Source: a virus
IMG/VR virus record: IMGVR_UViG_3300047560_001230
Coordinates: 1-20,663 of that record
DNA: 20,663 nucleotides
Reading direction: 5' to 3' (one strand)
Below the pieces are notes generated by a model that was not told the origin of the DNA, did no database searches, and worked only from the letters and a program-made list of their open reading frames with translations. How positions within the stretch are numbered: the first letter of the stretch is position 1; each line of letters starts with the position of its first letter. This document shows, piece by piece, positions 3,001 through 18,605 of this stretch. Position numbers and translations under genes: made by a program.

Positions 3001-5952
3001 GCTGGCAATAAAGTTACTATGGAAATGTTTATCTATCCATTCTATATGGACGGCGCATCCTATACCTTATTTAATTGCTGGTGGGGTGGTTCTAGTGGTG
3101 GAAGATGGCAATGGGGTTATGGTCCAGGATCAAGCTACGGTAACTGTACTAACCTGTATTTTATATGGACTACCGCGGCAAGTTCAAGTACAGTAACTAC
3201 AACATCATACTTAGTAAAATATTTGCAGTGGAATCACGTTGCTATAACAATTGATGCTACAACAGCTACATCCACTAATATCAACTTCTATTGTAATGGC
3301 GCGCTCGCGGGTGCGTTCACTGGACAAGATTTAAGTGCTCAAACTTCACACGCAGCTTTGGTATCAGGTGGCGCATGGTATCTATTCACTCAGCCTAGTG
3401 GATATAGTCCATTCTATGGCTATGCATCAAATGCACGAATAGTACGTGATGTATTAGTTTATACAGGAGCATACACTGTACCTACAAGTAATTTAACAAA
3501 TACACAAAGTGCAAGCACAAATATAAGCGCAATAACAGCAGGACAAACAGCATTATTAACACTACAAAGTGCCACCATAGTTGATAATAGTTATAACAAT
3601 TACACACTTACTACTAACACTGCTGCTGTGCCTAATGAGTTGAATGTTGGTGTCACAGACGTAGTACCATTTAGTACAGGTGCAATAACATACGACTCAT
3701 TCTCTCAAATATATGCAAGTGCAAGTTCATCACAGGCAGTGAAGGCTACTGACGCAACTGTGTGGGCTTGGGGTAGAAATGATACAGGTGAATTTGGTAT
3801 AAACAACACACTTAACTATTATAGCCCTGTACAAACAGCCGCATATCAGTACATATATCAAACTAAGGTGTCAAGCCCGGTACAGGTACAAGCAGGTAGT
3901 AGCTTTACATTTGTGAATACTAGAGGTTGGTCTACAGCCGCAGTGCCGATCAATGCTGGCGTAACGGTATGGATGTGGGGCAGAAACATAGAAGGTCAGT
4001 TGAATACCAATGATACTGTATCACGTAGTAGTCCTGTACAAATGGCACAGAACCCAGTTGGTCAAAGCGTATCGTTTACTGTATTAGGCACTGGTGTTTC
4101 TAACATAGTTGGTTTGGGTGTATATGGTGGAAGCAATGGTTTGATGTTTAATGCAGGTGGCGCCTCAGTAGGACAAATGGCTGATAACACAATTGTTTCA
4201 AAATCAATAGCTATACAAATTAACACAGGCACAATGAACCCACTACTATATCCTAAACCAACTACAGGATCTAACTGGGGTAGCTATACTCAAATACAAG
4301 TCAATCAATATACAGCAACAGTAATTGATAATAACAATAAACTATATGTTTGGGGTAACAATGCATACGGTGGTCTTGCAAGACCAGGTACATCTGATGG
4401 ATATTATATAAGTCCTATTTTGATGGGAAGTCAGACACCATCTGGATCCGCAAGCCCAGTACAAATCGTTGGCAGTTGGGGTGCAGTAAGTGCTGGTACT
4501 AGACATACACTAGCATTGAATTCTAGTAACAACATGTATACGTGGGGAGCCGATCCTGCAGTTAAAGGTGTTTCTTGGAAGTCATTATCATCTCAAAACC
4601 CTGCTCTGTACGGAGTACGCTCAGACGGAACATTATGGGCCTCAGGATATAACGGTGATGCGGGTCTAGGTGATGGTACTACTATCTCACGTTCTAACCC
4701 TGTTCAAATTCCAGGCAGCTGGGTATACGTAGCAGCCATTCAAGCTGCTGCCGCCGGAATTAGAGCGGACGGTACATTATGGACTTGGGGATTAAATAGT
4801 GCAGGACAGTTAGGTGACGGTACTGTTGTTAACAAGTCAAGTCCCGTTCAAGTTGCAGGTGGCGGAAGTTGGGCTACTGTAGCTGGTGGTAGAAGTCATT
4901 GGGTAGGTATCAAAACAGATGGTACTATGTGGGGCTGGGGTAACGGATATAACGGTCAATTGGGCATGGGATACTCTTTAGCAGCAGCAACTAAATCATC
5001 ACCTACACAGATTATAGCTAACAACGTGGCAGGAACAGACGTTGCAACCTTACCCTTCCCAACAACATGGAGTAAAGTTAGTTGCGGGGATTACAGCACA
5101 TACGCTGTAAGCAACGTGGGCGATCTATGGGTGTTTGGATACAATAACATAGGTCAGTTAGGATTGAATGATACAGTAGATAGATCAAACCCAGTACAGT
5201 TAATGGCTGGTGTGGGTATAGTTGATATTACTGCCGGTGGACCTGGTGGCACAACAACACACGTGATTAAAGGCGATGGCACATTATGGGGTTGGGGCTT
5301 AAATACGAACGGACAAATAGGTGATGGTACTGTTGCATATCGCTCAAGCCCTGTACAAATAGGTACAAGTAAGTGGGTATCACTATCACTTAACGGTGAT
5401 GTAAACAGATATGCAATGCGTAGTGACGGCACATTATGGGGTTGGGGATATAATGGCTATGGTCAATTGATGGATGGTACTACAGCTAATACATCCAGCC
5501 CAATACAACTTCCATCATCATGGGCACCACAATCTATACCTACATCAGGTAAATGGTTAATGACTGCTACGTGGAGCACATCTGGTAACACTAATTGGTG
5601 GGTAGCACCAACTGGTGAATTATATGGTTCTGGACAAAATAGATACGGTGAGTTAGGTGTAGGAACGTATAACCAATCCATGCCATATAACACATTTGGT
5701 GGAACATTAATACCAGGCTTTAGTACATCAAGCCCAGTTCAAATTGGATCAGGTACTTGGGGTAGTATCAATGCAGGTAATGATTTTAACTTAGCTACAA
5801 ATGGTTCTAATGCATTGTTTGCTTGGGGATTGAATACATCATATCAAGTAGGTTCAAATTCTGGTATGAACGTAGTATCTAGCCCAGTACAGATCGGAAC
5901 AGGTATCAACTTGATAGATGCTGGTACAATTGGTGGTTACTTACCGCAATAA
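1..5952 (+). CDS. Giant RCC1-repeat / LamG-domain adhesin-like protein (5' partial)
   Basis: The frame is open from base 1 to the TAA at 5950-5952 (1983 residues visible), so the true start lies left of the window; the ATG at 232 is internal. The protein is mostly RCC1-like repeats of about 50 residues. Each has a W-x-W-G core, a GQLGDGT-type turn and an S-S-P-V-Q-I strand; I count roughly two dozen P-V-Q-like strands. Three LamG/concanavalin A-like domains interrupt them at about residues 375-590, 673-872 and 972-1213, each with a TIEFW-like strand and an 'SN.RV..GQ.IYTG' strand. RCC1 repeats normally form beta-propellers and LamG folds are often glycan-binding, so a tail-fibre or other virion adhesin is the likely role. 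No catalytic motif, signal peptide or membrane segment was seen. The link to the virion is inferred from phage context. Domain calls are firm; receptor and exact virion location are unknown. Confidence 0.85.
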   Translation, partial: PVQIASADSFTQVAIGGDAIFAIKTNGTLWAWGYGTNGTIGDGTTANRSSPVQIGASTWSVVAGLAYATGAIDSIGRLFTWGSGSSGGLGSGTTANRSSPVLISVTGSSFTMVAGKDAYRFTTDPSCVARTTAGTYYVWGVNAQGQLGDNTTVNKSTPVIAFALANSTTGAQIAVADGIRVAPGGIAPSLYVTGRNNYGSVGDNTTVNRSSPVQISTEMRGILSPTMIFSAPYQASTILGAPNTSSFTAIGVGPSWGAAIASNANIPGTLWTWGIGTWGQLGDMTTVNRSSPVQIGANYIGLSPFSAGNTSSPVQIASGSWNQVAVGISTIYAIKSDYTLWSWGANNLGQVGDGGVYWMSSPVQINSGELTDPNAYSMYFMGGWEQYTITSGFAFGTGDFTIEFWAFPVISPDTNYNPFFTTGNSGGGQEIRISQNLNGNGFGFLVPNNSNNADVYAAFGHLPLFNWYHLALVRSGSTIALYKNGVCVGTATGVSFNHTAVNALRIANCQPAYSDGTFKGYMSNVRVIKGQAIYTGFQVGTTYFTPATAPLTTSTVGATGSGVAGSLTGTVQLLALRSNVFAGTFTDDSASAWPLVYYGGKLSAFTPFTSLRTNYSYVNVTTGYDQSVAITTTGKLFSWGGSGYGTIGDNTNAINRSDPVQLAIGTATGTLSYSVYFGRFINNWLYAPTDTNSTLGTSDHTIEFWCKIYSNGAGVVWQYNYGSSANATNKYYMTIGSTTSALYLGNGTGYGITITATNNNVWYLVSSYWAHNAIVRSGNTFTWYVNGVSVGSGTYAANIPAQTTYGWQFGSDSTSNIYGAISNFRVVVGQALYTGNFKPATSPLTTSTVGATGSGAAASLTGTVPVLLFNTSNPLYNAGIGPQLLKSGTYYEPIADFVNTPFSQQTFPAVLPNYAYSSITQIASGSYHHVVLTSNNILYSWGRNDYGQVGDRSQGSRSFPIQLPGTVSSPTNYSVRIFGPSDYIILPSALASTTGMGVGLAGNKVTMEMFIYPFYMDGASYTLFNCWWGGSSGGRWQWGYGPGSSYGNCTNLYFIWTTAASSSTVTTTSYLVKYLQWNHVAITIDATTATSTNINFYCNGALAGAFTGQDLSAQTSHAALVSGGAWYLFTQPSGYSPFYGYASNARIVRDVLVYTGAYTVPTSNLTNTQSASTNISAITAGQTALLTLQSATIVDNSYNNYTLTTNTAAVPNELNVGVTDVVPFSTGAITYDSFSQIYASASSSQAVKATDATVWAWGRNDTGEFGINNTLNYYSPVQTAAYQYIYQTKVSSPVQVQAGSSFTFVNTRGWSTAAVPINAGVTVWMWGRNIEGQLNTNDTVSRSSPVQMAQNPVGQSVSFTVLGTGVSNIVGLGVYGGSNGLMFNAGGASVGQMADNTIVSKSIAIQINTGTMNPLLYPKPTTGSNWGSYTQIQVNQYTATVIDNNNKLYVWGNNAYGGLARPGTSDGYYISPILMGSQTPSGSASPVQIVGSWGAVSAGTRHTLALNSSNNMYTWGADPAVKGVSWKSLSSQNPALYGVRSDGTLWASGYNGDAGLGDGTTISRSNPVQIPGSWVYVAAIQAAAAGIRADGTLWTWGLNSAGQLGDGTVVNKSSPVQVAGGGSWATVAGGRSHWVGIKTDGTMWGWGNGYNGQLGMGYSLAAATKSSPTQIIANNVAGTDVATLPFPTTWSKVSCGDYSTYAVSNVGDLWVFGYNNIGQLGLNDTVDRSNPVQLMAGVGIVDITAGGPGGTTTHVIKGDGTLWGWGLNTNGQIGDGTVAYRSSPVQIGTSKWVSLSLNGDVNRYAMRSDGTLWGWGYNGYGQLMDGTTANTSSPIQLPSSWAPQSIPTSGKWLMTATWSTSGNTNWWVAPTGELYGSGQNRYGELGVGTYNQSMPYNTFGGTLIPGFSTSSPVQIGSGTWGSINAGNDFNLATNGSNALFAWGLNTSYQVGSNSGMNVVSSPVQIGTGINLIDAGTIGGYLPQ
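1123..1770 (+). other. LamG/concanavalin A-like domain 1 within the adhesin
   Basis: Boundaries are approximate. The segment runs from a 'YSMYF' strand through 'DFTIEFW', 'WYHLALVRSG', 'LYKNGVCVG' and 'SNVRVIKGQAIYTG', the usual strand order of Laminin_G_3-type jelly rolls. It ends in a 'LLALRSN...DDSAS' closing strand. RCC1-like repeats flank it on both sides, so it appears inserted between propeller blades. Confidence 0.7.
1636..1713 (+). repeat. LamG linker repeat, copy 1
   Basis: These 26 codons begin with P-A-T-A-P-L and end with S-L-T-G-T-V. They match the segment at 2515-2592 at 23 of 26 residues, with many synonymous DNA differences. The segment follows LamG domain 1. Confidence 0.75.
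2017..2615 (+). other. LamG/concanavalin A-like domain 2 within the adhesin
   Basis: Boundaries are approximate. It has the same strand order as domain 1: 'YSVYF', 'DHTIEFW', 'NAIVRSGNTFTWYVNGVSVG', 'SNFRVVVGQALYTG', then a closing 'VLLF' strand. Its C-terminal linker is nearly identical in protein to that of domain 1, which points to domain duplication. Between domains 1 and 2 there is only about one RCC1-like unit. Confidence 0.7.
2515..2592 (+). repeat. LamG linker repeat, copy 2
   Basis: This is the second copy of the 26-codon linker (first at 1636-1713), differing at three residues. It follows LamG domain 2. No equally close third copy follows LamG domain 3. Confidence 0.75.
2917..3640 (+). 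other. LamG/concanavalin A-like domain 3 within the adhesin (divergent)
   Basis: Boundaries are approximate. It is recognisable by 'YSVRIFGPSDYIILP', 'KVTMEMFIYPF', 'WNHVAITID', 'NFYCNGALAG' and 'SNARIVRDVLVYTG'. It is more divergent than domains 1 and 2 and lacks their conserved linker. A closing 'LLTLQSATIVDNS' strand is present. The long uninterrupted RCC1-like block to the stop codon follows. Confidence 0.65.
3660..5949 (+). repeat. C-terminal block of RCC1-like repeats
   Basis: This is an uninterrupted run of RCC1-like units encoding W-x-W-G, a GQLGDGT-like turn and S-S-P-V-Q-I. Unit spacing is about 50-60 codons, with some longer degenerate units. Copies differ at many synonymous positions, so the similarity is kept at protein level and is not a recent DNA tandem expansion. 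The block could supply at least one complete seven-bladed propeller, but blade number cannot be settled by eye. Confidence 0.75.
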
Positions 5953-6016: not shown

Positions 6017-7780
6017 ATGCATGAAATTGACGAGATGTTGGCTCTCCAGCTTGAGGGTAAACATGAACAAGCAAGAGTACTATCAGACAAATTAGAAGCA
6101 ATCGGTAAAGATAAGATTCTAGATCCAAACGGTAAAAATACCGAAGATATTTGGATGCGTCATTGCTTCAATCGCGGCTGGTTCTTGATCCAAGAAGGTA
6201 AATACCAAGAGGGTTGCCAGTTATTAGAAAACGGACGCTTCTTAAATGTATACGGTAGTCCTCCATTACGCACTGATGCTCCTATCTTTAACCCAGCAGA
6301 GCATGATATTACCGGTAAAGGTATTATCATTTCATTAGAAGGTGGATACGGTGATGAAATTATCCATGCACGTTTTGCACAGAGTTTTAAAAAGAAAGGC
6401 GCAAGCAAGGTATATATTGCAGCAGCACCAGAACTAATTTCTGTATTTGAGCGTATGGAAGGTGTTGATGGAGTTATATTACGCAATCAAGCACATACTG
6501 TGCCTCACGATTTCTGGGTTCCTGGCTTTAGCGCAGGATGGATTTCTGGGCACACGTTTGAAGATTTTCCCGGCGACCCATATCTAACACCACGCCAAGA
6601 TAGCGTTGAGATTTGGAAGTCAATGATTACTGCACCAGAAGGTGTAAAGAAAGTCGGTATTCGTTGGGCAGGTAATCCTAAGTTTGAACATCAACAGTTC
6701 CGTCGTTTTCCCGAGAACTTCATTACAAACTTAGCAAAGTATCCTGAACTAAAAATCTTTAGTCTACAGAAGGATCACAATCTAATTCAGTTACCTGAAG
6801 GAGTTACAGACCTGCAACACTTCCTAATTAGCTGGGAAGACACAATGGCAGCAATCGCTAATTTAGATATTGTCATCACTAGTTGTACAAGTATCGCACA
6901 CATTGCCGCGGGTATGGGTAAAGAAACATGGGTATTAGTTCCTGTATTACCGTATCATACATGGACGTACAAGAGTCCCGAAAATCGTGGATCACCATAC
7001 TATAACTGTGTACGATTATTCCGTCAAACACAAAAAGGTAAGTGGAATGACACATTCCAGTTATTGTACAAAGAACTAGAAGAAAAATTCAATCTAGCAC
7101 ATATTGATATGCCTGATGAAGACCGTGTAACTAAGCGTGTAAACTTAGGTTGCGGATCACAAAAGATTGAAGATTTTGTCAACGTTGATATTAGTCCTAC
7201 TGTAAAGCCAGATATGGTGGTAGACTTAAATCAATTCCCGTGGCCGTTCAAGGACAATGAATTTGATCACCTTGTTGCTAAGGATGTATTAGAACATCTA
7301 GGTGAAACAAGTGCAGACTTTATTAAGGTTCTCAAAGAGATGTATCGTATCAGTCATAACGGTGCTATTTGGGAAATTGAAAGCCCTCACTGGCGCTGTG
7401 ATACTGCAATAGATGATCCAGATCATAAGCGTTTAATCACAATGGGTATGTTTAATCTATTCAATAAGCGTATGCTACTAGAAAAACTTCAAACAGAAGG
7501 TGGTAGTCATAGTGCTCATGCATTCGAGCATGATATTGATATTGAAATTTGCGATATGCAATTTGATTATACTGGTCCTTGGGCAGAGAAACTACGTAAA
7601 CGTGAAATTGGTCAAGAAGAATTGACCTACGCATTGAATCACTTAACTAATGTTGCACAAAGCGTAAAGTATCTAATTCAAGTTCATAAGCCAGGGCGTA
7701 TTGATTTTGAAGAATATGAGCGTCTTGTTGATGAAAAGATAAAGACACCTTTGAAGTTGAATAATAGTGGTAACAGCTAA
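6017..7780 (+). CDS. TPR / GT9-like glycosyltransferase fused to SAM methyltransferase
   Basis: This 587-residue protein has three parts. Residues about 1-80 look like TPR-type helices ('NRGWFLIQEGKYQEGCQLLE'). Residues about 100-350 resemble the TPR-linked heptosyltransferase/GT-B group, with a 'GGYGDEI' loop near 109, 'KVGIRWAGNP' near 213 and the donor-site-like 'SCTSIAHIAAGMG' near 291. Residues about 373-480 are a class I methyltransferase with 'VNLGCGS' (SAM motif I) and 'FPWPFKDNEFD..VAKDVLEHL'. The likely role is sugar transfer plus methylation of a glycan or its carrier, in the cytoplasm. The start has a good Shine-Dalgarno AAAGGA 8 nt upstream. It is the first gene of the cassette after the adhesin, and the next gene overlaps its end by 14 nt. 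Sugar donor and acceptor are unknown. Confidence 0.75.
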   Translation: MHEIDEMLALQLEGKHEQARVLSDKLEAIGKDKILDPNGKNTEDIWMRHCFNRGWFLIQEGKYQEGCQLLENGRFLNVYGSPPLRTDAPIFNPAEHDITGKGIIISLEGGYGDEIIHARFAQSFKKKGASKVYIAAAPELISVFERMEGVDGVILRNQAHTVPHDFWVPGFSAGWISGHTFEDFPGDPYLTPRQDSVEIWKSMITAPEGVKKVGIRWAGNPKFEHQQFRRFPENFITNLAKYPELKIFSLQKDHNLIQLPEGVTDLQHFLISWEDTMAAIANLDIVITSCTSIAHIAAGMGKETWVLVPVLPYHTWTYKSPENRGSPYYNCVRLFRQTQKGKWNDTFQLLYKELEEKFNLAHIDMPDEDRVTKRVNLGCGSQKIEDFVNVDISPTVKPDMVVDLNQFPWPFKDNEFDHLVAKDVLEHLGETSADFIKVLKEMYRISHNGAIWEIESPHWRCDTAIDDPDHKRLITMGMFNLFNKRMLLEKLQTEGGSHSAHAFEHDIDIEICDMQFDYTGPWAEKLRKREIGQEELTYALNHLTNVAQSVKYLIQVHKPGRIDFEEYERLVDEKIKTPLKLNNSGNS

Positions 7781-8405
7781 TTATATATTTACCCACAATG
7801 ACTTCAATCATGCCTATGACAAAGGCAACAAAGCGAATGGTGGTGCTAAGTCGAACATTGAATGGTTAGTAAACTATTACGGTGTCCCTAGTACTATCAT
7901 TGAAGTGGGTGTGTTTGAGGGTGGAACAACGTTCTGGTTATCAGAAGTTCTAACCCCACATAACAAAAACTTAAAAATCTATGCTATTGATCCACATGTG
8001 GGTAGTACTGATATGGATGAAGATCCTGAAGCAGTGCAAAAAAACTTTGCTCACAATGTTAGTGTATGCACATATCAAAACGTAGAATATATTAGAAAAC
8101 ACAGTGAGGATGGTCTTATTGATTTAATTAATAAGGGTGTACAAGCAGAATTGATTTATATCGATGGAGATCATAAAGCAAACGCAGTCTTAACTGATTT
8201 AGTTTTGTCTTGGAAGTTGCTAAAAAAGGGCGGTGTTATTCTTTGTGATGACGCAGTTCATTGGCAATATAAAGATGAAAACGGGATGAAAGCTGCACAA
8301 ATGTCACCTAGAATGGCAGTAGAGTTTTTCATTCAATGTCATTGGCATGAACTTCATTTAATCAAAACACAAGATAGCTGGCAAACAGCATTTCAAAAGT
8401 TATAA
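7767..8405 (+). CDS. Class I SAM-dependent methyltransferase (Methyltransf_24 / CmcI-like)
   Basis: This 212-residue protein has SAM motif I as 'IIEVGVFEGGTTFWLSEVL' (about 44-62), an acidic strand-2 end 'IYAIDPH', and 'YIDGDHKANAVLTDL' (131-145). 'LLKKGGVILCDDAVHW' follows. This pattern fits the Methyltransf_24/CmcI-like group, which includes sugar O-methyltransferases. The start is GTG at 7767, overlapping the end of the preceding gene by 14 nt; no good in-frame ATG lies near the N-terminus, so translational coupling is likely. The context between two glycosyltransferases suggests a sugar substrate (inference). Confidence 0.75.
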   Translation: MVTANYIFTHNDFNHAYDKGNKANGGAKSNIEWLVNYYGVPSTIIEVGVFEGGTTFWLSEVLTPHNKNLKIYAIDPHVGSTDMDEDPEAVQKNFAHNVSVCTYQNVEYIRKHSEDGLIDLINKGVQAELIYIDGDHKANAVLTDLVLSWKLLKKGGVILCDDAVHWQYKDENGMKAAQMSPRMAVEFFIQCHWHELHLIKTQDSWQTAFQKL

Positions 8406-8407
8406 CA

Positions 8408-9115
8408 ATGTTAAATTTATATCGTAGTAACAATATGTCGGTCGAAGCCGCATACATCATTACTGTTAAAGGAAACGCTAACAGTGAAAAATATAGTGCG
8501 ATGGCACAAGATAGTTGTCGCCAAGTTGGTATGCCATATAAAGTATGGGATGCATATGATGGTACTACTAAAGGTATCATCAAAGAACCGGATAACTTAA
8601 AGAACGATAGCTTTATGGATATGATTAAAATTACCGATCATTATCTAACTAGAGGTGAAGTCGCTTGTGCATTAAGTCATATTAGTTTATGGCGTCATTG
8701 TGCATTAATTGATAGACCTATTGTTATCCTTGAGCATGATTCTGTCATGGTAAAACGATTTGAAAACCATGAGAGTTATAATTCCATCTGTTATTTAGGT
8801 GGTCAAGAGTGGGCTAAACAAGGTTGGAAGATTTATCCAATCCCACCACACGCTAGTGAAGGGCCTAACTGGCTCTTCATTTGTCGTGCTCATGCATACA
8901 GCATTGACCCTCAAGTAGCAAAGAACTTGCTAGCATACGTATTACAAATGGGAATCAATGCCCCATTAGATATTATGCTACGTGCAGACCTGTTTCATAT
9001 TACACATCAAGGTTTGTATGCATATGATATCCCAAGCTCTAAAGAAGATACAACTATCTTGGCTCGTCCGTTTGAGGGCAGAACTACAAAACGTAATGAC
9101 AAGTTAGAGTGGTGA
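8408..9115 (+). CDS. Glycosyltransferase family 25 (LPS-type) protein
   Basis: This 235-residue protein opens with a GT25-like first strand 'AAYIITVKGN' (14-23). It carries the family landmark 'LTRGEVACALSHISLW' (80-95) and 'IVILEHDSVM' (105-114), the place of the usual acidic 'LEDD' metal-binding segment; here one Asp is His. GT25 enzymes include LPS galactosyltransferases and hydroxylysine galactosyltransferases. The ATG at 8408 lies 2 nt after the previous stop. An internal ATG at 8435 would fit the usual compact GT25 N-terminus, so the start is uncertain. It probably acts with the two preceding genes. Confidence 0.75.
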   Translation: MLNLYRSNNMSVEAAYIITVKGNANSEKYSAMAQDSCRQVGMPYKVWDAYDGTTKGIIKEPDNLKNDSFMDMIKITDHYLTRGEVACALSHISLWRHCALIDRPIVILEHDSVMVKRFENHESYNSICYLGGQEWAKQGWKIYPIPPHASEGPNWLFICRAHAYSIDPQVAKNLLAYVLQMGINAPLDIMLRADLFHITHQGLYAYDIPSSKEDTTILARPFEGRTTKRNDKLEW

Positions 9116-9573
9116 TAAGTACATTCGTGATGAATGTATTTCAATTGAGTTATGAAGCCAGACTAAGAAGCTGGTACGATCTTAGAAGTCAGATTGAGCA
9201 GTCTGACACAAAAACCAAATGCGTAGAAATTGACAAATGGTGGCAAAAAGCCCCATTAGTCAACCATCATCTACATATTTTGGATAGTGAAAGTTGGCCC
9301 GATCCTTGGGAACTTTTGGTAGAAAACACCTATTGTACTGTTGCAAGAGCATTAGGTATGTGTTATACTTTGTTATTACTAGGGATTACAGATATTGAAT
9401 TGGTCGAGGCCACCGACAAAAACGGTGAGGACGTAGTATTAGTCCTGGTAGATAGCGCAAAATATGTACTTAATTACTGGCCCGAGACCGTAGTAAATAA
9501 CTATTCAAAAGACTTTACAATCAAGCGTAAGATAGACCTGACAGACTTACAACTAAAAATAGGTGCAAAATGA
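9109..9573 (+). CDS. Conserved-looking phage hypothetical protein
   Basis: I do not assign a function to this 154-residue protein. It is soluble, charged and rich in Trp, with 'LSYEARLRSWYDLR', 'IDKWWQKAPLVNHHLH' and 'SWPDPWELL'. A hydrophobic helix 'ARALGMCYTLLLLG' follows, then a beta-rich end with 'VVLVLVDSAKYVLNYWP'. From memory, similar sequences occur as hypotheticals in T4-like marine phages; this was not checked. The GTG at 9109 overlaps the previous stop. The ATG at 9130 (residue 8) is an equally good start and gives the N-terminus 'MNVFQLSYEARLR'. The 3' end overlaps nrdA by ATGA, so it is translationally linked to the nucleotide-metabolism operon. Confidence 0.65.
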   Translation: MVISTFVMNVFQLSYEARLRSWYDLRSQIEQSDTKTKCVEIDKWWQKAPLVNHHLHILDSESWPDPWELLVENTYCTVARALGMCYTLLLLGITDIELVEATDKNGEDVVLVLVDSAKYVLNYWPETVVNNYSKDFTIKRKIDLTDLQLKIGAK

Positions 9574-11900
9574 ACAACATAAATGTAGTAAAACGAAGCG
9601 GAGAAACAGTACCCTTAGACATAAACAAGATACAGAGACAGGTAGCATACGGATGCAGAGGGATAGATAATGTCAGTCCCAGCATGATTGAGATTAAAGC
9701 ACAAATTGAATTACACGATGGAATCAGTACCGAAACTATCGATGAACTATTGCTAAAAGCAATGGTAAACTTGATTGACGAAACAGAAAATCCAGATATC
9801 AATAACGTAAACTATCAATATGTAGCAGGAAGACAGAAAGTGTCGATGCTACGTAAAGAAGTATATGGCAGCTATAATCCACCCCCACTCTACAATATCG
9901 TTAAAAAGAACGTAGAATTAGGGATGTACACCCATGAATTGTTAGAGTGGTATTCCAAAGAAGAATGGGATATCATTGATTTGTTTATAGACCATAGCAA
10001 GGACGAAAATTACACCTATGCGGCTATCGCTCAATTAGCAGAAAAGTACTTAGTACAGAACCGTGCTACTGGTCAAATATTTGAGACTCCTCAGGTAAGA
10101 TATGCAATAGCAGCCGCCACTGCATTCCACAATGAGCCTAAAGATAAAAGGTTAAAATATGTCAAAGAATACTACGAATGTGCTAGCGACGGGCATTTTA
10201 CTCTTGCTACTCCTGTCTTGGCTGGCCTTGGTACTACAACCAAACAGTTTAGTAGCTGTGTACTCATTTCTAGTGATGATACTCTTGATAGCATTTTTGC
10301 CGCTGGAGAAATGATGGCTAAGTATGCTAGCAAACGTGCTGGCATTGGATTAGAGATTGGACGCATTCGCCCACTAGGTGCTCCTATTCGTAACGGAGAG
10401 ATTAAGCACACTGGTATGATTCCCTTCTTAAAGAAGTGGTTCGGTGATCTACGTAGTTGTAGTCAAGGTGGTGTACGTAATGCAAGTTGCACAGTTACAT
10501 TCCCAGTATGGCATTATCAGTTTGAAGACCTAATCGTATTAAAGAATAATCAGGGAACGGAAGAGACCCGAGTGAGACAAATGGACTACAGCGTGGTAGT
10601 CAACAAGATGTTCTGGAATCGTTTTAAGAACAATGAAAATATTACATTGTTTGATCCGCATGATGTACCAGACTTATATGAAGCATACTATAGAGATAGC
10701 GAAGAATTTCAAACATTATACGAACACTATGAACACAAGCGTGGTCTCAAAAAGAAAGTGTTACCAGCAGTGGAGATTTTCAAGAATGGAATACTAAAAG
10801 AAAGAACAGACACAGGTCGTATCTATCTAGTATTCATTGATAACGTAATTAATCAAGGTCCGTTTGATACCAAACTAGACCCGATTTATCAGAGTAACCT
10901 TTGCCAAGAAATACTATTACCTACAAAGCCATTTCAGCGCATTGAAGACGAGGCTGGCAGAATTGCCCTATGTACTTTGGGTAGCCAGAATTGGGGAGCG
11001 TTTAAGACTCCTCAAGAAATGCGTAAGAGTGCTAGGGTATTAGTGCGTAGTCTAAGTAATCTCCTTAGCTATCAAGACTTCCTCAGCGTACAGAGTAAGT
11101 TAGCTAACTTAGATTTCGAGCCTCTTGGTATAGGGATTACCAATTTAGCATACTGGCACGCCAAGCGTGGCTTCAAGTATGGAACTCCAGAAGCACTTGC
11201 TGAAGTTAAGCGTTGGATGGAACATCAAGCATACTACCTCACTGAGGCAAGTGTAGAACTAGCACAAGAGCGTGGTGCATGTCAAAAGTCAGCACAAACA
11301 TTCTATGGTCAAGGTATCTTTCCCTGGGAACGCCGTAGCCCAGGAGTTAATGAGTTAGCAGATTTTACACCTAGTGGTAATCTAGACTGGGAAGGATTGC
11401 GCCAAAATCTATTGAAGTATGGCATTCGTAATGCTACACTTATGGCAGTAGCTCCAGTAGAATCTAGTTCTGTCGTTTTAAATTCAACCAATGGTATTGA
11501 AATGCCAATGGAAATGATTTCAGTTAAAGAAAGTAAAGCAGGATCATTTGTACAAGTTGTACCAGAATACAAACGACTAAAGAACCGATATCAATTGATG
11601 TGGGAACAGCGTGACTGTGTTGATTATCTAAAGACTGCGGCAGTATTGGCTGCATATATCGATCAATCTATCAGCACAAATACATTCTATAATCCTGCGT
11701 ATTTTGAAGGTGGCAAAGTGCCAGGAACATTGATAAGTAAGAATCTAATGCTTGCTTACAAGTGGGGAATCAAAACTATATATTATAGTTTGATTAATAA
11801 AGTAGGTGCTAAGGCAGCACTACAAGAAGATAACATCATACCTTTTGTTAAACAAGAAATAATTGAAGATGATGAATACTGCGAAAGTTGCGTATTATAA
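9570..11900 (+). CDS. nrdA: Ribonucleoside-diphosphate reductase, class Ia alpha subunit
   Basis: This 776-residue protein reduces ribonucleoside diphosphates to deoxy forms with NrdB. An N-terminal ATP-cone is visible ('VVKRSGETVPLDINKI', about 6-21), so dATP/ATP activity control may be kept. The catalytic cysteines are C230 in 'FSSCVL', C445 in 'SNLCQE' (with E447) and C468 in 'IALCTL'. Their spacing (215, 23) closely follows E. coli C225/C439/C462. The radical-transfer tyrosine pair is in 'KTIYYS', and a C-terminal CxxC (C771, C774) can accept electrons from glutaredoxin. Length is normal (E. coli 761). ATGA overlap with the upstream gene indicates coupling. The stop is TAA at 11898-11900, and the following isocitrate lyase start is in the same frame 9 nt on. 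Confidence 0.96.
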   Translation: MNNINVVKRSGETVPLDINKIQRQVAYGCRGIDNVSPSMIEIKAQIELHDGISTETIDELLLKAMVNLIDETENPDINNVNYQYVAGRQKVSMLRKEVYGSYNPPPLYNIVKKNVELGMYTHELLEWYSKEEWDIIDLFIDHSKDENYTYAAIAQLAEKYLVQNRATGQIFETPQVRYAIAAATAFHNEPKDKRLKYVKEYYECASDGHFTLATPVLAGLGTTTKQFSSCVLISSDDTLDSIFAAGEMMAKYASKRAGIGLEIGRIRPLGAPIRNGEIKHTGMIPFLKKWFGDLRSCSQGGVRNASCTVTFPVWHYQFEDLIVLKNNQGTEETRVRQMDYSVVVNKMFWNRFKNNENITLFDPHDVPDLYEAYYRDSEEFQTLYEHYEHKRGLKKKVLPAVEIFKNGILKERTDTGRIYLVFIDNVINQGPFDTKLDPIYQSNLCQEILLPTKPFQRIEDEAGRIALCTLGSQNWGAFKTPQEMRKSARVLVRSLSNLLSYQDFLSVQSKLANLDFEPLGIGITNLAYWHAKRGFKYGTPEALAEVKRWMEHQAYYLTEASVELAQERGACQKSAQTFYGQGIFPWERRSPGVNELADFTPSGNLDWEGLRQNLLKYGIRNATLMAVAPVESSSVVLNSTNGIEMPMEMISVKESKAGSFVQVVPEYKRLKNRYQLMWEQRDCVDYLKTAAVLAAYIDQSISTNTFYNPAYFEGGKVPGTLISKNLMLAYKWGIKTIYYSLINKVGAKAALQEDNIIPFVKQEIIEDDEYCESCVL

Positions 11901-11912
11901 AGGACCAAAATG
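11896..11912 (+). promoter_or_regulatory. Ribosome binding site overlapping the nrdA stop, for aceA
   Basis: The stretch TTATAAAGGACCAAAATG contains the nrdA stop TAA, the Shine-Dalgarno AAAGGA and the aceA ATG. A nearly identical arrangement, TTTATAAAGGACAAAATAC before ATG, occurs at 5999-6019. It fixes the aceA start at 11910. Confidence 0.6.
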
Positions 11913-13136
11913 AAGAAACGAAACTACACACAAGACACAGTCCGTAAACTACAAGGTAGCGTACAGATTGAACACACACTAGCAAAGCGAGGCGCATTTA
12001 AGTTGCGTGAATTGTTAGCTACTGAACCCTATATCAACACCCTTGGTGCCTACAATGGCCAAATGGCTGTGCAACATGCTAAAGCAGGTTTAAAAGCAAT
12101 CTATCTAAGTGGCTGGCAAGTGGCTGGCGCTAACAATACAGCAAACCAAACATACCCAGATCAAAGTCTGTATCCAGTTGATAGCGTACCTAAAGTTGTT
12201 AAAGGTATCAACAACGCTTTCCGTCGTGCAGATCAAATTGACTTTGCTGAACAATATGCAAACGGTGAAGATCGTGATGTAGTACAAGATTACTTCCTTC
12301 CTATAGTTGCTGATGCAGAGGCGGGATTTGGCGGAGCCCTAAACGCTTACGAACTTATGTCAGCTATGATTGAAGCAGGTGCTGCTGGTGTACACTTTGA
12401 AGACCAACTAGCAAGTGAAAAGAAATGCGGTCACTTAGGTGGTAAAGTACTCGTACCAACAAGCCAAATGATTCGCACACTAAACGCCGCACGTTTAGCC
12501 GCAGACGTTGCAGGAGTCGATACTGTTATTATGGCTCGCACCGACGCAGAAAGTGCAACATTGATTACCAGTGACCACGACCCACTAGATAAGGACTTTA
12601 TTATAAATGAGCGTACTGAAGAAGGTTTCTACAAATTTAAGAACGGTATCGATGCTTGTATTAGCAGAGGTCTTGCTTATGCCCCTTACGCTGATCTCTT
12701 ATGGTTTGAAACTAGCACACCTGATATTGCACAAGCTAAGAAATTCGCAGACGCTATACACGCACAGTTTCCAGATCAAATGCTTGCTTATAATTGCAGT
12801 CCTAGCTTTAATTGGCGCAAGTTTTTAAGTGAAGATGAATGCGAAACATTCCAGCGTGAACTAGGTCAATTGGGCTATAAGTTCCAATTCATTACGCTAG
12901 CAGGTTTCCATAGTGTTAATTTAGCTACATTTGAACTAGCAGAAGCGTATAAGGCACGTGGCATGGCTGGTTATAGCGAAATGCAACAACGTGAGTTTGC
13001 CGCACAAGAGCGTGGCTTCACAACTGTTAAACATCAACGTGAAGTTGGCGTTAGTTACTTTGATGCAATCAGTACAGCAGTTGGCGCCACATCTACTGTA
13101 GCAAACACGCACTCAACTGAAGCGGATCAATTCTAA
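11910..13136 (+). CDS. aceA: Isocitrate lyase (glyoxylate shunt)
   Basis: This 408-residue protein cleaves isocitrate to glyoxylate and succinate. The family signature 'KKCGH' is at 171-175 (catalytic C173). Also present are '[10 protein letters not shown]' (67-76), 'DAEAGFGG' (135-142, Mg-site Asp), 'VHFEDQ' (161-166), 'NCSPSFNW' (295-302) and 'TLAGFHS' (329-335). These agree in order and spacing with E. coli AceA as I remember it. The C-terminal 'HSTEADQF' matches the usual end, so the active site looks intact. The N-terminus is about 20 residues shorter than E. coli AceA, which is 434 residues. The start has Shine-Dalgarno AAAGGA; the stop lies 1 nt before nrdB. Being inserted between nrdA and nrdB means it should be co-expressed with RNR. 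No malate synthase is in the window. 2-Methylisocitrate lyase is less likely given the overall match. Confidence 0.95.
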
Positions 13137-13137
13137 T

Positions 13138-14241
13138 ATGAGTAAAGAACAGTACAATATTAGTAAACAAACTAATTATTTGAAACGTAGAATGTTTTTA
13201 GACCCTGAAGGTCCAGTTACCGTTCAGCGTTTTGAAGAAGTTAAATATCCAAAGATACAAAAGTATGAAGAAACCGCACGTGGTTTCTTCTGGGTACCTG
13301 AAGAAATTAGTCTAACAAAAGACAAGATTGACCACAAAGAAGCTAGTGAGGCTGTTAAACATATCTTTACTAGCAACTTGTTACGTCAGACAGCACTTGA
13401 TAGTATTCAAGGTCGTGCTCCAAGCCAAGTGTTAGGTCCTGTATGCAGTATCCCAGAACTAGAAGCATTGACATTAACTTGGGGCTTCTTTGAAACAAGT
13501 ATTCATTCAAAGAGTTATAGTCATATCATTCGTAATGTATATGGTGTACCCAAAGAAGAATTCAACAAGATCCATGATACAAAAGAGATTGTTGAAATGG
13601 CTTCTAGCATTGGCAAGCACTATGATATCTTACACAAGATTAATTGTGATAAAGAGTTGGGAATCAATTCGTTTACTGAAGAACAACATATCAATGCAAT
13701 CTGGATGGCACTCAATGCAAGTTACGCACTAGAAGCATTACGATTCATGGTAAGTTTTGCTACAAGTCTAGCAATGGTCGAGAATAAGATTTATATTGGT
13801 AACGGCAACATTATTAGCTTGATTCTACAAGATGAAGTATTGCACAAAGAATGGACAGGGTTCATAATTAATCAAGTTGTCAAAGAAGATCCGCGCTTTG
13901 CTAAAGCTAAGATCGATTGCGAACGTCAAGTGTATGAAATGTACATGGACGTTATACGTGAAGAAAAAGAATGGGCAGAATACTTATTTAGCCGCGGCGT
14001 CGTGATTGGACTAAATGCTGATATACTTAAAGATTTTGTTGATTATACAGCATTTAACGCATTGAAAGAAATCGGAATTCGCTATGATGAGAATCACCCA
14101 AAGAGCAGTCCTATTCCATGGTTTAACAAACATGTTAATATCAATAAGAAACAGACAGCACTACAAGAAAATGAATCAACTAACTACGTTATCGGTGTTA
14201 TGAGTGACGTAGTTGAATTTGATAAGTTACCAAGTTTATAA
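13138..14241 (+). CDS. nrdB: Ribonucleoside-diphosphate reductase, class Ia beta subunit
   Basis: This 367-residue radical-generating subunit aligns with E. coli R2 along its length from memory. Metal ligands are D88 ('LDSIQGR'), E119 and H123 in 'FETSIHSKSY', E199 ('EALRF'), and E233 and H236 ('DEVLH'). The radical tyrosine is Y127. W52 ('FFWVPEE') and Y350 ('NYVIG') of the radical path are present. The D88-E119 spacing (31) equals E. coli D84-E115, but E119-H123 is E-x-x-x-H where E. coli, mouse and human have E-x-x-H: one extra residue (S121) in the metal-site helix. The gene starts 1 nt after aceA and is followed by a strong Shine-Dalgarno for glutaredoxin. The enzyme is probably active with NrdA. 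Confidence 0.95.
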   Translation: MSKEQYNISKQTNYLKRRMFLDPEGPVTVQRFEEVKYPKIQKYEETARGFFWVPEEISLTKDKIDHKEASEAVKHIFTSNLLRQTALDSIQGRAPSQVLGPVCSIPELEALTLTWGFFETSIHSKSYSHIIRNVYGVPKEEFNKIHDTKEIVEMASSIGKHYDILHKINCDKELGINSFTEEQHINAIWMALNASYALEALRFMVSFATSLAMVENKIYIGNGNIISLILQDEVLHKEWTGFIINQVVKEDPRFAKAKIDCERQVYEMYMDVIREEKEWAEYLFSRGVVIGLNADILKDFVDYTAFNALKEIGIRYDENHPKSSPIPWFNKHVNINKKQTALQENESTNYVIGVMSDVVEFDKLPSL

Positions 14242-14786: not shown

Positions 14787-15068
14787 ATGGCAGCATTAAG
14801 TCGTGTAGGAGATACAAATCAACCCGGTGGTGCAATCGTAAGAGGTGCAGGAACCGTGTTCAGTAATGGTATCAAAGTAGGGTTACATGTTAGTCCTATA
14901 ACTCCTCACGCACCTTGGGGTAAACCTCATCCCCCTCATGCCTCAGCTACAACTACTGATGGGAGTCCTACTGTATTTGCAGAAGGAGCTCCTGTTCTCA
15001 GAGTAGGCTCAGGCAATAGTTGTGGTCATAGTATCGTACAAGGTAGTCCAGACGTTTTTGTCCCATGA
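14787..15068 (+). CDS. PAAR-domain tail-spike tip protein
   Basis: This 93-residue protein starts 'AALSRVGDTN' and has the Gly/His/Pro-rich middle 'HVSPITPHAPWGKPHPPHAS', then 'SPTVFAEGAPVLRVGSGNSCGHSIVQGSPDVFV'. The repeated 'G(S/T)..VF..G.PV.RVGS...CG' layout and C-terminal His/Cys are typical of PAAR proteins. These bind a metal ion and cap the membrane-piercing spike of contractile tails (T4 gp5.4 type). It overlaps the next gene by ATGA. This supports a contractile-tailed virus. Confidence 0.85.
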   Translation: MAALSRVGDTNQPGGAIVRGAGTVFSNGIKVGLHVSPITPHAPWGKPHPPHASATTTDGSPTVFAEGAPVLRVGSGNSCGHSIVQGSPDVFVP

Positions 15069-17092
15069 GTTATAGTCCATTACAAATTAATGCAATGGGT
15101 ACACTGTTGCAAAATATAGGTTTACGCATTAATCCTAATGCGGCAGCCTACATGGGTACAAGTGTTGATGAAGCTACATATACACCGGGGTCCGTAGTAA
15201 GTACTACATGTTTGGGATATTTGTCACAATCTATTCGTTTAGCATATGACTTAATTAATGAGCCGGGCGTATCTGCATTAACTTATGACAATCTTATTCA
15301 CATAGGATCTAATACTATTCCTGCATTAGGTAATAGCCCACCAACGTTCTTTACTAATCTAACTTATACAGATGAGATGACTAGCTATGGATTCTTGCGT
15401 TTAGCACCATGGTCAGCTTATCAGAGTTTTTATATTAACAACGGTAGCTATAGTGATTTCTTAAGCACAATTAATACGTGTTACGGTAAGAAAACACAGT
15501 TAAATGGCACAATTGCCGCGCTATCTAAATCTAAAACGTTTTTAGATGGTACTTACAGTAATATGAATGACCTGATATCGGGAGATATTACAGGGGTCAA
15601 CTTAAGTACATTCTATTGGGGTCAGGATTTAATTGCGAGTGGTAGAGCAATTGACTTAACGACAATGCAAGACTTCGGCTATCCTGATAATTTATTACGC
15701 ACATTAAACAAAAATAATGCGTTAACCAAAGCAGTTAACTTAGCATTGTTAAGTGCAGGATTGAATGCGTCAGATATCAATACTATTCTTAGTGGTCAAC
15801 GTGCAACAGAAGAACAGCAGAAATTAATGTACGGTGCTTTCTGTATTATTACAAATAATGACTTAGCAGATGTGTGTACATTGTTAAACTTCCAAGCAAC
15901 TGCAACTACGTTAGCTGATTTATTGAATCCTAAAGTATTGTTCCCTAACAGTTATGCATCACTAACCTTCCCAACATTCAACGCAATACCATTACCGACA
16001 AATAGCAAAACATATCATTTAATATACTCCAACGGTACTGTTGATATTAAACCTGGGTTAGGCATAGGTGACAAATACAGAAGTATCATTCCAGCAGACA
16101 TTGCATATGCGGCAGAAGCCTTTAGCATATCTATGCTACAAATTAAGAATATTCAAGCAATGAGTATTGAGAAGTTTTCGCAAGTTGTAATGAATTTGGA
16201 AAACGTTAATGGATTAGGAGTAAATGGCACTAACGTCCCCACTAACACAACATTAGCTAGTGCGGCATATGGTATCATAGCAAAGGGATCTGGTGTTGAC
16301 GATACTTACACTATGTTTGATTTCTTTGGTACAATGACAGATTTGCATTATCCATGGCAGCAGTTGCAAGAGTTACTAATTAAAGTGCAGACAAGTTCGT
16401 TAACCAGTACATATATTCAAATGTTCTCATTGTTGAACGGGCCCGGACCTTATTATGATTTACAAGGTTATATAGATCAGGCTAATGCTGAAATCATAGC
16501 GATATTGGGAACGGATACAGAGGACGTAAGAAATCTAATTAGTACATACGCAACCATAGCTGAGTATATACAAAAAGAGTTAGATGCAAGGGCACTAGCA
16601 TTGCCAGGAATCGCTGATTTAACTAGCACTCCGGCTGATGTTGTAAGTTTTATAGATAGTATAGGAACTTACGGCAATGAGACAGCAGTAGGTGGTATGG
16701 CCCCGTTCTTAGAAAACATTGCAGACCCTACGTCAGCTAATAGTTTAATAGGTGCATTGCGTGAAGCTAGAAATAGTTCACGTTTAGCATTAACTGGAGC
16801 AGTATTAGACAATGACGTTACTGGCGACCCGTTAATACTACCCAAACAAAGTCCATATACACCGGGCACCAGTCCTAATGAAGGATATGACGTTAGCCCT
16901 AAAATTGCTAATACGCCAGTTATAACTGGTGCGGCAATCGTACCGGGAAGTTTAGCAGGTTCCAAAGAAACCACACTAATCCCGCCCAATCTCAGTATTG
17001 TCACAACTACAGCAGGGCAGACAATATTGACACCCGAAGAAGCTATCGCAGATGTTATACTATGTAACTGTGACTGCTGGGATATGCTATGA
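15065..17092 (+). CDS. Large protein of unknown function, probable tail/baseplate component
   Basis: I do not recognise this 675-residue protein. It is rich in Ser, Thr, Asn, Leu and Tyr, with no signal peptide and no clear membrane segment. The N-terminal half is largely helical, with motifs such as 'GYLSQSIRLAYDLINEPG' and 'LAPWSAYQSFY'. The C-terminal 100 residues are Pro/Thr/Val rich and low in complexity. The protein ends in a cysteine cluster 'CNCDCW'. ATGA overlap with the PAAR gene and its size suggest a virion protein, perhaps one that carries or is capped by the PAAR tip (inference). No intrinsic motif supports an enzyme. Confidence 0.6.
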   Translation: MSYSPLQINAMGTLLQNIGLRINPNAAAYMGTSVDEATYTPGSVVSTTCLGYLSQSIRLAYDLINEPGVSALTYDNLIHIGSNTIPALGNSPPTFFTNLTYTDEMTSYGFLRLAPWSAYQSFYINNGSYSDFLSTINTCYGKKTQLNGTIAALSKSKTFLDGTYSNMNDLISGDITGVNLSTFYWGQDLIASGRAIDLTTMQDFGYPDNLLRTLNKNNALTKAVNLALLSAGLNASDINTILSGQRATEEQQKLMYGAFCIITNNDLADVCTLLNFQATATTLADLLNPKVLFPNSYASLTFPTFNAIPLPTNSKTYHLIYSNGTVDIKPGLGIGDKYRSIIPADIAYAAEAFSISMLQIKNIQAMSIEKFSQVVMNLENVNGLGVNGTNVPTNTTLASAAYGIIAKGSGVDDTYTMFDFFGTMTDLHYPWQQLQELLIKVQTSSLTSTYIQMFSLLNGPGPYYDLQGYIDQANAEIIAILGTDTEDVRNLISTYATIAEYIQKELDARALALPGIADLTSTPADVVSFIDSIGTYGNETAVGGMAPFLENIADPTSANSLIGALREARNSSRLALTGAVLDNDVTGDPLILPKQSPYTPGTSPNEGYDVSPKIANTPVITGAAIVPGSLAGSKETTLIPPNLSIVTTTAGQTILTPEEAIADVILCNCDCWDML

Positions 17093-17729: not shown

Positions 17730-18605
17730 ATGGAAAACACTCAACAACCCGAAGAAACCAAGTCATCATTGAATGAATATTTTGAAAAACTAGCACCCTC
17801 TTTGGCTAAAACAGATAGCTTAGTAGGTGATTTTATTATATACAAAAATGACCAAATTGTAAGTCAATCAATCGCATTGTTTGGTGAATACTGTCACGCT
17901 GAGATTAAAATTATGTCCAGATACTTAGACAAAGATTCACTATACTTAGACATTGGCACAAATATCGGATATCACGCTAGGGCTATAAATCAAGAGGTAG
18001 GATGCAACGTAATGGCTTTTGAGCCACATCCCAGTCATTTTTGTGTAGCCGCGTACAATTGTCAGGATAAGAACATTCTATTGTATCATACTGCATTAGG
18101 TAATAAAACAGGTAGTATAGAACTAAAGAACTTTGATGAAAACGCATCCGGCAATTATGGAGATTTGACTACAATTACTGATGATATTGAAGATGTTATC
18201 AAAGTACCATTAAAGAAACTAGATTCATTTAACCTAGAAAAATGTACATTAATGAAGATTGATGTAGAAGGCGCAGAACTTGATGTACTTAAGGGCGCTG
18301 TCAAGACTATTAAAAAGTTTCGTCCAGTAATATTCTATGAAGCAATCAGTGTAGATGATTGGGCAGAGTGTTACGAGTTTTTAGATACACGTGACTATAG
18401 ACAATATTGGGTTACATGCAGAACAAAACCATTAGGACCTACGTTTAAAACAAATGAAGCCAATCCATTCGGTGACGGTGGAGTTAGTAATATCTTAGCC
18501 GTTCCTTCAGAAAATGAACAACCAACTGATTTAGTTGAAGTTATGTCTGGCGAATCATACAACGACATGGTCAAACGGTTAACATCATATAAAATTATAT
18601 TTTAA
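17730..18605 (+). CDS. FkbM family methyltransferase
   Basis: This 291-residue protein has the FkbM pattern: SAM motif 'LYLDIGTNIGYHARAI' (71-86), 'VMAFEPHP' (94-101), 'LLYHTALGNKTGSIEL' (117-132), 'VPLKKLDSF' (159-167) and 'LMKIDVEGAELDVLKGA' (174-190). FkbM enzymes O-methylate small molecules and sugars, and are common in surface-polysaccharide clusters and marine phages. No clear Shine-Dalgarno precedes the ATG. The 3' end overlaps the convergent gene by 3-4 nt. The substrate is unknown; action on a virion or host glycan fits the other sugar genes. Confidence 0.85.
   Translation: MENTQQPEETKSSLNEYFEKLAPSLAKTDSLVGDFIIYKNDQIVSQSIALFGEYCHAEIKIMSRYLDKDSLYLDIGTNIGYHARAINQEVGCNVMAFEPHPSHFCVAAYNCQDKNILLYHTALGNKTGSIELKNFDENASGNYGDLTTITDDIEDVIKVPLKKLDSFNLEKCTLMKIDVEGAELDVLKGAVKTIKKFRPVIFYEAISVDDWAECYEFLDTRDYRQYWVTCRTKPLGPTFKTNEANPFGDGGVSNILAVPSENEQPTDLVEVMSGESYNDMVKRLTSYKIIF

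Follow-up and report, generated by a model that had tools for sequence, protein, structure and literature searches.

In phage T4, expression of mobE, a gene located between nrdA and nrdB, is driven by promoters that lie upstream of nrdA (PMC2988022). The presence of genes with no known function in among nrdA and nrdB of phages had been noted earlier (PMC3653736). As for isocitrate lyase (ICL), which is encoded by aceA, the sections considered here describe an aceBA operon in the marine viral genome TARA_ERS478052_N000008 together with T4-like structural genes (PMC5332604), while a proglacial-lake study groups aceA with nrdA as genes without host homologues (PMC12783922). The 20,663-base virus record IMGVR_UViG_3300047560_001230, analysed over its full length and hereafter called the window, contains an aceA between nrdA and nrdB, the genes for the large and small subunits of ribonucleotide reductase (Table 1). 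By a modest balance of probability, this gene is regarded as encoding a phage-adapted, virus-only ICL, carried on a mobile and promoterless cassette lodged in the nrd cluster, which would add to the infected cell an ICL activity completed by the malate synthase of the host.

The window AceA is an ICL and not a methylisocitrate lyase. It passes the NCBIfam isocitrate lyase model NF011645 (Table 1) and PF00463 (181 and 174 bits, cut-off 26), while the models of methylisocitrate lyase (PrpB) give 116 bits against a cut-off of 354 (TIGR02317) and 95 against 353 (another model), by which the latter identity is ruled out. The motif KKCGH starts at residue 171, the position given by the sequence-only reading, with DAEAGFGG starting at residue 135, NCSPSFNW at residue 295 and STEADQF at the C-terminus; KKCGH and seven other motifs, which we take to be the active-site motifs of ICL, are all kept in 86 of 86 clade sequences. 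The best sequence match in the PDB is 6lrp (4e-164), and solved ICLs are aligned over almost the full length. Isocitrate lyase or AceA is named in the title of all 50 PDB matches listed for the predicted structure (best E 1e-41), with a template modelling score of about 0.75 and a root-mean-square deviation of 4.5–16 Å to the ICL structures listed, from a model of moderate confidence (mean predicted local distance difference test score 74, and below 50 for the C-terminal residues 373–408). The gene is thus apparently intact, as had been claimed from the sequence, and its product is predicted to cleave isocitrate.

The genes nrdA, aceA, nrdB and a glutaredoxin-like gene are arranged head to tail on a single strand (+), and the coordinates of the open reading frames bear out the claimed position of aceA, with gaps of 9 nt after nrdA and 1 nt before nrdB. 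The window NrdB falls under the cut-off of the class Ia model NF006576, yet it matches the phage NrdB family phrog_86 (Table 1). Chimeric or host DNA at aceA, a doubt raised in the sequence-only reading, is ruled out, as a sister IMG/VR record of 50,298 bases (possibly from a shared sample) spans the entire window at 99.95–99.96% identity and the same gene order recurs in related viral loci. A scan of viral contigs with AceA provided 181 relatives among 182 candidates, of which the best 80 (87–100% identical) were kept. Among these 80, one of which is the sister record, the order nrdA-aceA-nrdB is present in 41 (38 with glutaredoxin in view), the order nrdA-nrdB-aceA-glutaredoxin in nine, and other or partial nrd-linked orders in four, which places nrd genes in view at 54 of the 80 loci. 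These are counts of loci rather than of independent events, limited by what contig fragments show, and the locus set contains duplicate contigs (L173 is that of L003, L247 of L045, L330 of L027, L357 of L042 and L394 of L037). Across the nrdA-aceA-nrdB loci, the gap from nrdA to aceA ranges from 7 to 765 nt and that from aceA to nrdB from −1 to 4586 nt (tblastn ends); tight spacing is a trait of the window and not of the family.

Within the cellular ICLs sampled, the window-type AceAs form a distinct virus-only clade. The tree contains 81 of 224 rows, left after removal of near-duplicate, short and stop-bearing rows: 22 of the window group (window included), 21 of a second viral set (from the best 80 of 98 relatives) and 38 cellular. 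The window group appears as one clade with a support of 100/100 and no cellular row inside. Its members share 57.7–67.4% pairwise identity with 65 cellular rows, and the best AceA matches are 65% identical among 369 and 398 sampled genomes and 65.1% identical on plasmids (Arthrobacter). The cellular sample was drawn mainly from these overlapping sets of genomes, which cover one class and one phylum and each gave its best 30 matches as loci, and from plasmids, while chromosomes beyond Pseudomonadota were sampled solely by a narrow two-pattern scan of genome contigs, which gave eight ICL loci and one weak match. The second viral set, comprising Phage C48C1 and its relatives, is interleaved with gammaproteobacterial ICLs, and a single origin of both viral sets is rejected (p-AU 1e-6, with L163 left out after the tree had been seen); it follows that viral ICL appears to have more than one origin. 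In a phage collection of 50,697 records, nine match AceA, with C48C1 as the best (63.2%), while several other matches, 500-kb Salmonella contigs for instance, have the appearance of bacterial DNA.

The aceA gene is under purifying selection about as strict as that on nrdA and nrdB. The median ratio of nonsynonymous to synonymous substitution (dN/dS) is 0.067 for aceA, 0.071 for nrdA and 0.071 for nrdB (411, 234 and 579 pairs, respectively, with dS 0.2–1.2). Its history is decoupled from that of its neighbours, as, for the 34 of 161 sequence sets in which all three genes are full length, the Spearman correlation of protein distances is 0.08 between aceA and nrdA (552 of 561 non-independent pairs, near-identical ones excluded) and 0.80 between nrdB and nrdA (pairs likewise non-independent). 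A recent spread of aceA as the cause of the high AceA identity is unsupported, since a codon comparison of these sets shows wide divergence at four-fold sites, with a mean identity of 0.45 in aceA and 0.35 in nrdA over 253 pairs with nrdA 68–72% identical, and the mean AceA identity of about 91% is thus attributed to constraint. On an nrdA tree built by a quick method from 58 distinct of 81 rows, the presence of aceA needs at least six changes and the slot of aceA ten, with at least four changes for the label without aceA forced by the well-supported branches alone. Loci were picked by similarity of aceA or nrdB, which biases frequencies; within this sample aceA looks like cargo, repeatedly gained or relocated in an nrd slot whose content varies.

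That slot contains other genes as well. The nrdB loci in which aceA is lacking show an empty junction, small proteins, IscU, IscA, class II aldolase, methyltransferase-like genes, a ferredoxin-family gene (phrog_3704) or homing endonucleases, while four of 80 loci (window nrdB as query) and 13 of 80 (a second nrdB query, L046) have neither nrdA in view nor aceA. A homing endonuclease at the slot is clear in L220 (phrog_655, 206 bits) and is also found in L250 (phrog_314, 49 bits, with Pfam GIY-YIG under its cut-off); the signal in L174 is weak (Pfam HNH just under its cut-off), and no such gene is present in the window itself. Homing-driven exchange may keep the nrdA/nrdB junction variable, with aceA riding in it. 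Junctions with alternative cargo include L186, L242, L176 and L018, among others. One alternative cargo is a cluster of proteins of about 220 residues, whose L186 member matches phrog_3704 'ferredoxin'; another, of about 190–226 residues, appears by eye to be secreted and cysteine-rich, and its L176 and L242 members have no family match. At the other junction, a tryptophan-halogenase-like gene is located between nrdB and glutaredoxin in L055 (3041–4507), and likewise in L057.

The aceA gene has a Shine-Dalgarno-like motif in front of it in 72 of 79 related loci (the chance level was not computed), while TATAAATA, which we take to be the core of the T4 late promoter, occurs in the 200 nt ahead of aceA at only one of 80 loci, a few of which have less than 200 nt there; no motif of T4 late type is present upstream of the window aceA. 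The common former and the rare latter motif fit a cassette that has no promoter of its own and relies on the nrd transcript. Between positions 9000 and 15200, the sigma-70-like promoters (16 found, 17.4 expected) and the terminator-like patterns (6 found, 4.3 expected) are at chance level and uninformative either way, and no Rfam family matches at its gathering score anywhere in the window.

The phages appear to add one branch-point enzyme and not a pathway, to judge by the gene families found in their records. Malate synthase (PF01274) is present in none of 50 aceA-bearing records (49 of the window clade and C48C1), while the same search found it in six of 14 control genomes. The 50 records include the C48C1 genome (156 kb) and contigs as long as 374, 338, 184 and 147 kb; for the window phage itself this search covers the 50-kb sister record and not a full genome. 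The isocitrate/isopropylmalate dehydrogenase family PF00180, the only dehydrogenase family searched, is likewise in none of 50 records, of which 48 carry aceA, and serine hydroxymethyltransferase (SHMT) is in one of 50. The statement of the sequence-only reading that the phage runs the glyoxylate shunt is thus unsupported. Another 49 records, mostly from the second viral set, include one with malate synthase (L163), where it forms an aceB-aceA pair (6441–9206) on a viral contig with an AceA outside the window clade. The SHMT-bearing record, L080, has a tight row of a radical-SAM/SPASM gene, aceA and SHMT (273–3742).

According to the explanation that we modestly favour, aceA would have moved between phages of the T4 superfamily as a single promoterless cassette, lodged mostly in the nrd cluster at the nrdA/nrdB or the nrdB/glutaredoxin junction, and would be read from the nrd transcript by means of a ribosome-binding site of its own. 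During infection, its product would provide extra ICL activity at the isocitrate branch point, diverting host isocitrate to glyoxylate and to succinate, a source of electrons for respiration and of four-carbon units, and keeping the carbon that isocitrate dehydrogenase would lose as CO2. As malate synthase was not found in the phage records, the host enzyme most likely completes the shunt, while transamination of glyoxylate to glycine is less likely. Several points weigh against this explanation. The enzyme activity and the transcript are predictions from sequence, and a host malate synthase is assumed; most of the records are fragments, and the absence of a phage malate synthase has weight mainly for the long ones. 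In Escherichia coli, ICL is a poor competitor of isocitrate dehydrogenase as long as the latter has not been inactivated by AceK. No nrd gene is present in the stretch covered at 26 of the 80 close aceA loci, so the nrd context is not essential, and aceA is beside nrdB in only seven of the 80 closest relatives of the window nrdB (the sister record among the seven) and in 11 of the 80 closest to the second query.

The position of aceA may also be without meaning, the nrdA/nrdB junction being a permissive slot varied by homing endonucleases, with aceA as one of many passengers, whose role is unrelated to the supply of deoxyribonucleoside triphosphates (dNTPs). This has a substantial probability, though short of even, and is compatible with the favoured explanation, which concerns the enzyme. 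The varied cargo of the slot, the low share of aceA among nrdB relatives and the decoupled history of aceA speak for it, while the nrd linkage of 54 of 80 aceA loci, at two junctions, looks beyond random landing in genomes whose size can be above 300 kb (this was not computed); homology of the slot could also yield the recurrent location. In another reading, ICL is carried for glyoxylate, which may be converted by host transaminases to glycine, for purine rings and, through SHMT, for one-carbon units used in thymidylate synthesis. We take this glycine route to be the main metabolic rival of the route through host malate synthase, and it would explain both the location inside the ribonucleotide reductase cluster, given the nrd genes in view at most loci, and the lack of malate synthase in all 50 records. 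The SHMT of L080, which starts only 8 nt downstream of the stop codon of aceA, agrees with it, but that is the only SHMT among 50 records and has no nrd gene in view, a desaturase is found near aceA at 22 of 82 loci, and the window, in which no Rfam family matches, has no glycine riboswitch. Such a nucleotide supply is unlikely, and a shade less likely still is the view that phage ICL is a nucleotide-supply gene and not a shunt gene, with one nrd transcript raising both deoxyribonucleotide reduction and the supply of purine and thymidylate precursors; such a role, if real, would be new for viral ICL. A functional tie of aceA to dNTP synthesis is no more than possible, given the loci without nrd in view, those near a desaturase and the varied cargo of the junction.

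The desaturase raises a further alternative, in which ICL belongs to one programme with phage desaturase and iron-sulphur assembly genes. Iron-sulphur enzymes stand on either side of ICL, as aconitase produces isocitrate and succinate dehydrogenase consumes succinate. Among the 82 clade loci, 22 have a fatty-acid desaturase no more than 1.5 kb from aceA, all of them among the loci without nrd in view, and IscU and IscA are near aceA in eight and nine, respectively. Desaturase is also commoner in aceA-bearing records, both for records of at least 35 kb (12 of 17 against 8 of 27 without aceA, Fisher p 0.013) and for those of at least 80 kb (8 of 10 against 0 of 6, p 0.007), although these values are uncorrected for kinship and the two size limits were chosen after the counts had been seen. 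Seven of the 22 loci are near-copies (L071–L077), records G007 and G009 look alike, and desaturase was found neither in the 50-kb sister record (G011) nor in a 374-kb contig (G002). This link is considered improbable. The desaturase is near aceA in L006, L012, L051, L065, L071 and 17 more, in some with a class II aldolase between them, and that of L006 has no match in the phage collection. For the favoured ICL cassette, the significance is that phages keep a central-carbon enzyme of a distinct lineage, under selection about as strict as that on ribonucleotide reductase and with an independent history, yet in a recurrent operon slot. The general claim that viral aceA reprograms carbon also becomes testable, as a lone ICL must act via host enzymes, by the malate or the glycine route.

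Table 1. Genes and translation signal of the nrd cluster in the window.
Feature	Position	Strand	Evidence
nrdA, class Ia ribonucleotide reductase large subunit, 776 aa	9570–11900	+	NF006578, 836 bits (cut-off 813); phrog_84, 7e-272
Shine-Dalgarno-like AAAGGA of aceA	11899–11904	+	Sequence; overlaps the nrdA stop codon TAA (11898–11900)
aceA, isocitrate lyase, 408 aa	11910–13136	+	NF011645, 680 bits (cut-off 562); PDB match 6lrp; fold; motifs
nrdB, ribonucleotide reductase small subunit, 367 aa	13138–14241	+	phrog_86, 6e-110; NF006576, 288 bits (under cut-off of 346)
Glutaredoxin/thioredoxin-like gene 3' of nrdB, 76 aa	14253–14483	+	phrog_22, 5e-16

The remainder of the window contains a 1983-residue frame (1–5952, +), open at the contig edge, with RCC1 repeats and three laminin-G-like (PF13385) stretches, which is perhaps a virion or adhesion protein. 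Near the nrd cluster, the regions 6017–9115 and 17730–18605 contain Methyltransf_11, Methyltransf_24 and FkbM methyltransferase-like genes and a glycosyltransferase family 25 gene, which suggests modification of surface glycans. A 675-residue protein (15065–17092, +), encoded 3' of a PAAR-like gene, is unmatched in Pfam, in PHROGs and in the phage collection.

The relatives suggest that the window phage is among the jumbo T4-like phages. The window and its 50-kb sister record contain no Gp23 major capsid protein, while T4-type Gp23 is found in nine of 50 related records, namely six aceA-bearing ones (the 338- and 374-kb contigs among them), a seventh aceA-bearing one with a short piece (G008) and two without aceA; it was not found in G005 (139 kb), G850 (106 kb), G007 and G009. 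The Gp23 of G013 has its nearest isolates in Vibrio phage 2.275.O (67.1%) and in Pseudomonas phage PA5oct and its kin (65.8%), whose records are 280–350 kb, and the window NrdA is closest to that of Xanthomonas phage X1 (61.5%).

Viral aceA and the aceBA operon have been published already, in line with what the sequence-only reading had mentioned of viral glyoxylate-shunt genes, while neither the nrdA-aceA-nrdB arrangement nor the virus-only AceA clade was found in the open-access literature (main texts, in the parts considered). In the passages considered, Pacific Ocean viromes contain aceA and aceB as viral carbon-metabolism genes, comparable to the window ICL but with no gene order given (PMC4053976), and viral aceA in proglacial lakes (PMC12783922) and viral isocitrate lyase under the Ross Ice Shelf (PMC10721903) likewise resemble that of the window, with no nrdA-aceA-nrdB arrangement described. 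Phage C48C1 (OQ984149; 156 kb, Kyanoviridae) encodes a full-length ICL of 413 residues, annotated as a hypothetical protein and 63% identical to the window AceA; unlike the window, it has no nrd gene annotated within 15 kb of the ICL gene, and its AceA belongs to the second viral set. The genome TARA_ERS478052_N000008 is similar to the window, by its description in the sections considered, in that a T4-related viral genome carries an ICL gene for which a metabolic role is proposed, whereas its aceA is paired with malate synthase and that of the window stands alone in the nrd cluster (PMC5332604); the aceB-aceA record found here (L163/G809) has an AceA outside the window's clade. With regard to position, the closest parallel is T4 mobE, described as a promoterless insert at the nrdA/nrdB junction (PMC2988022), as is proposed here for the window aceA; mobE encodes a homing endonuclease, whereas the window aceA encodes a metabolic enzyme.

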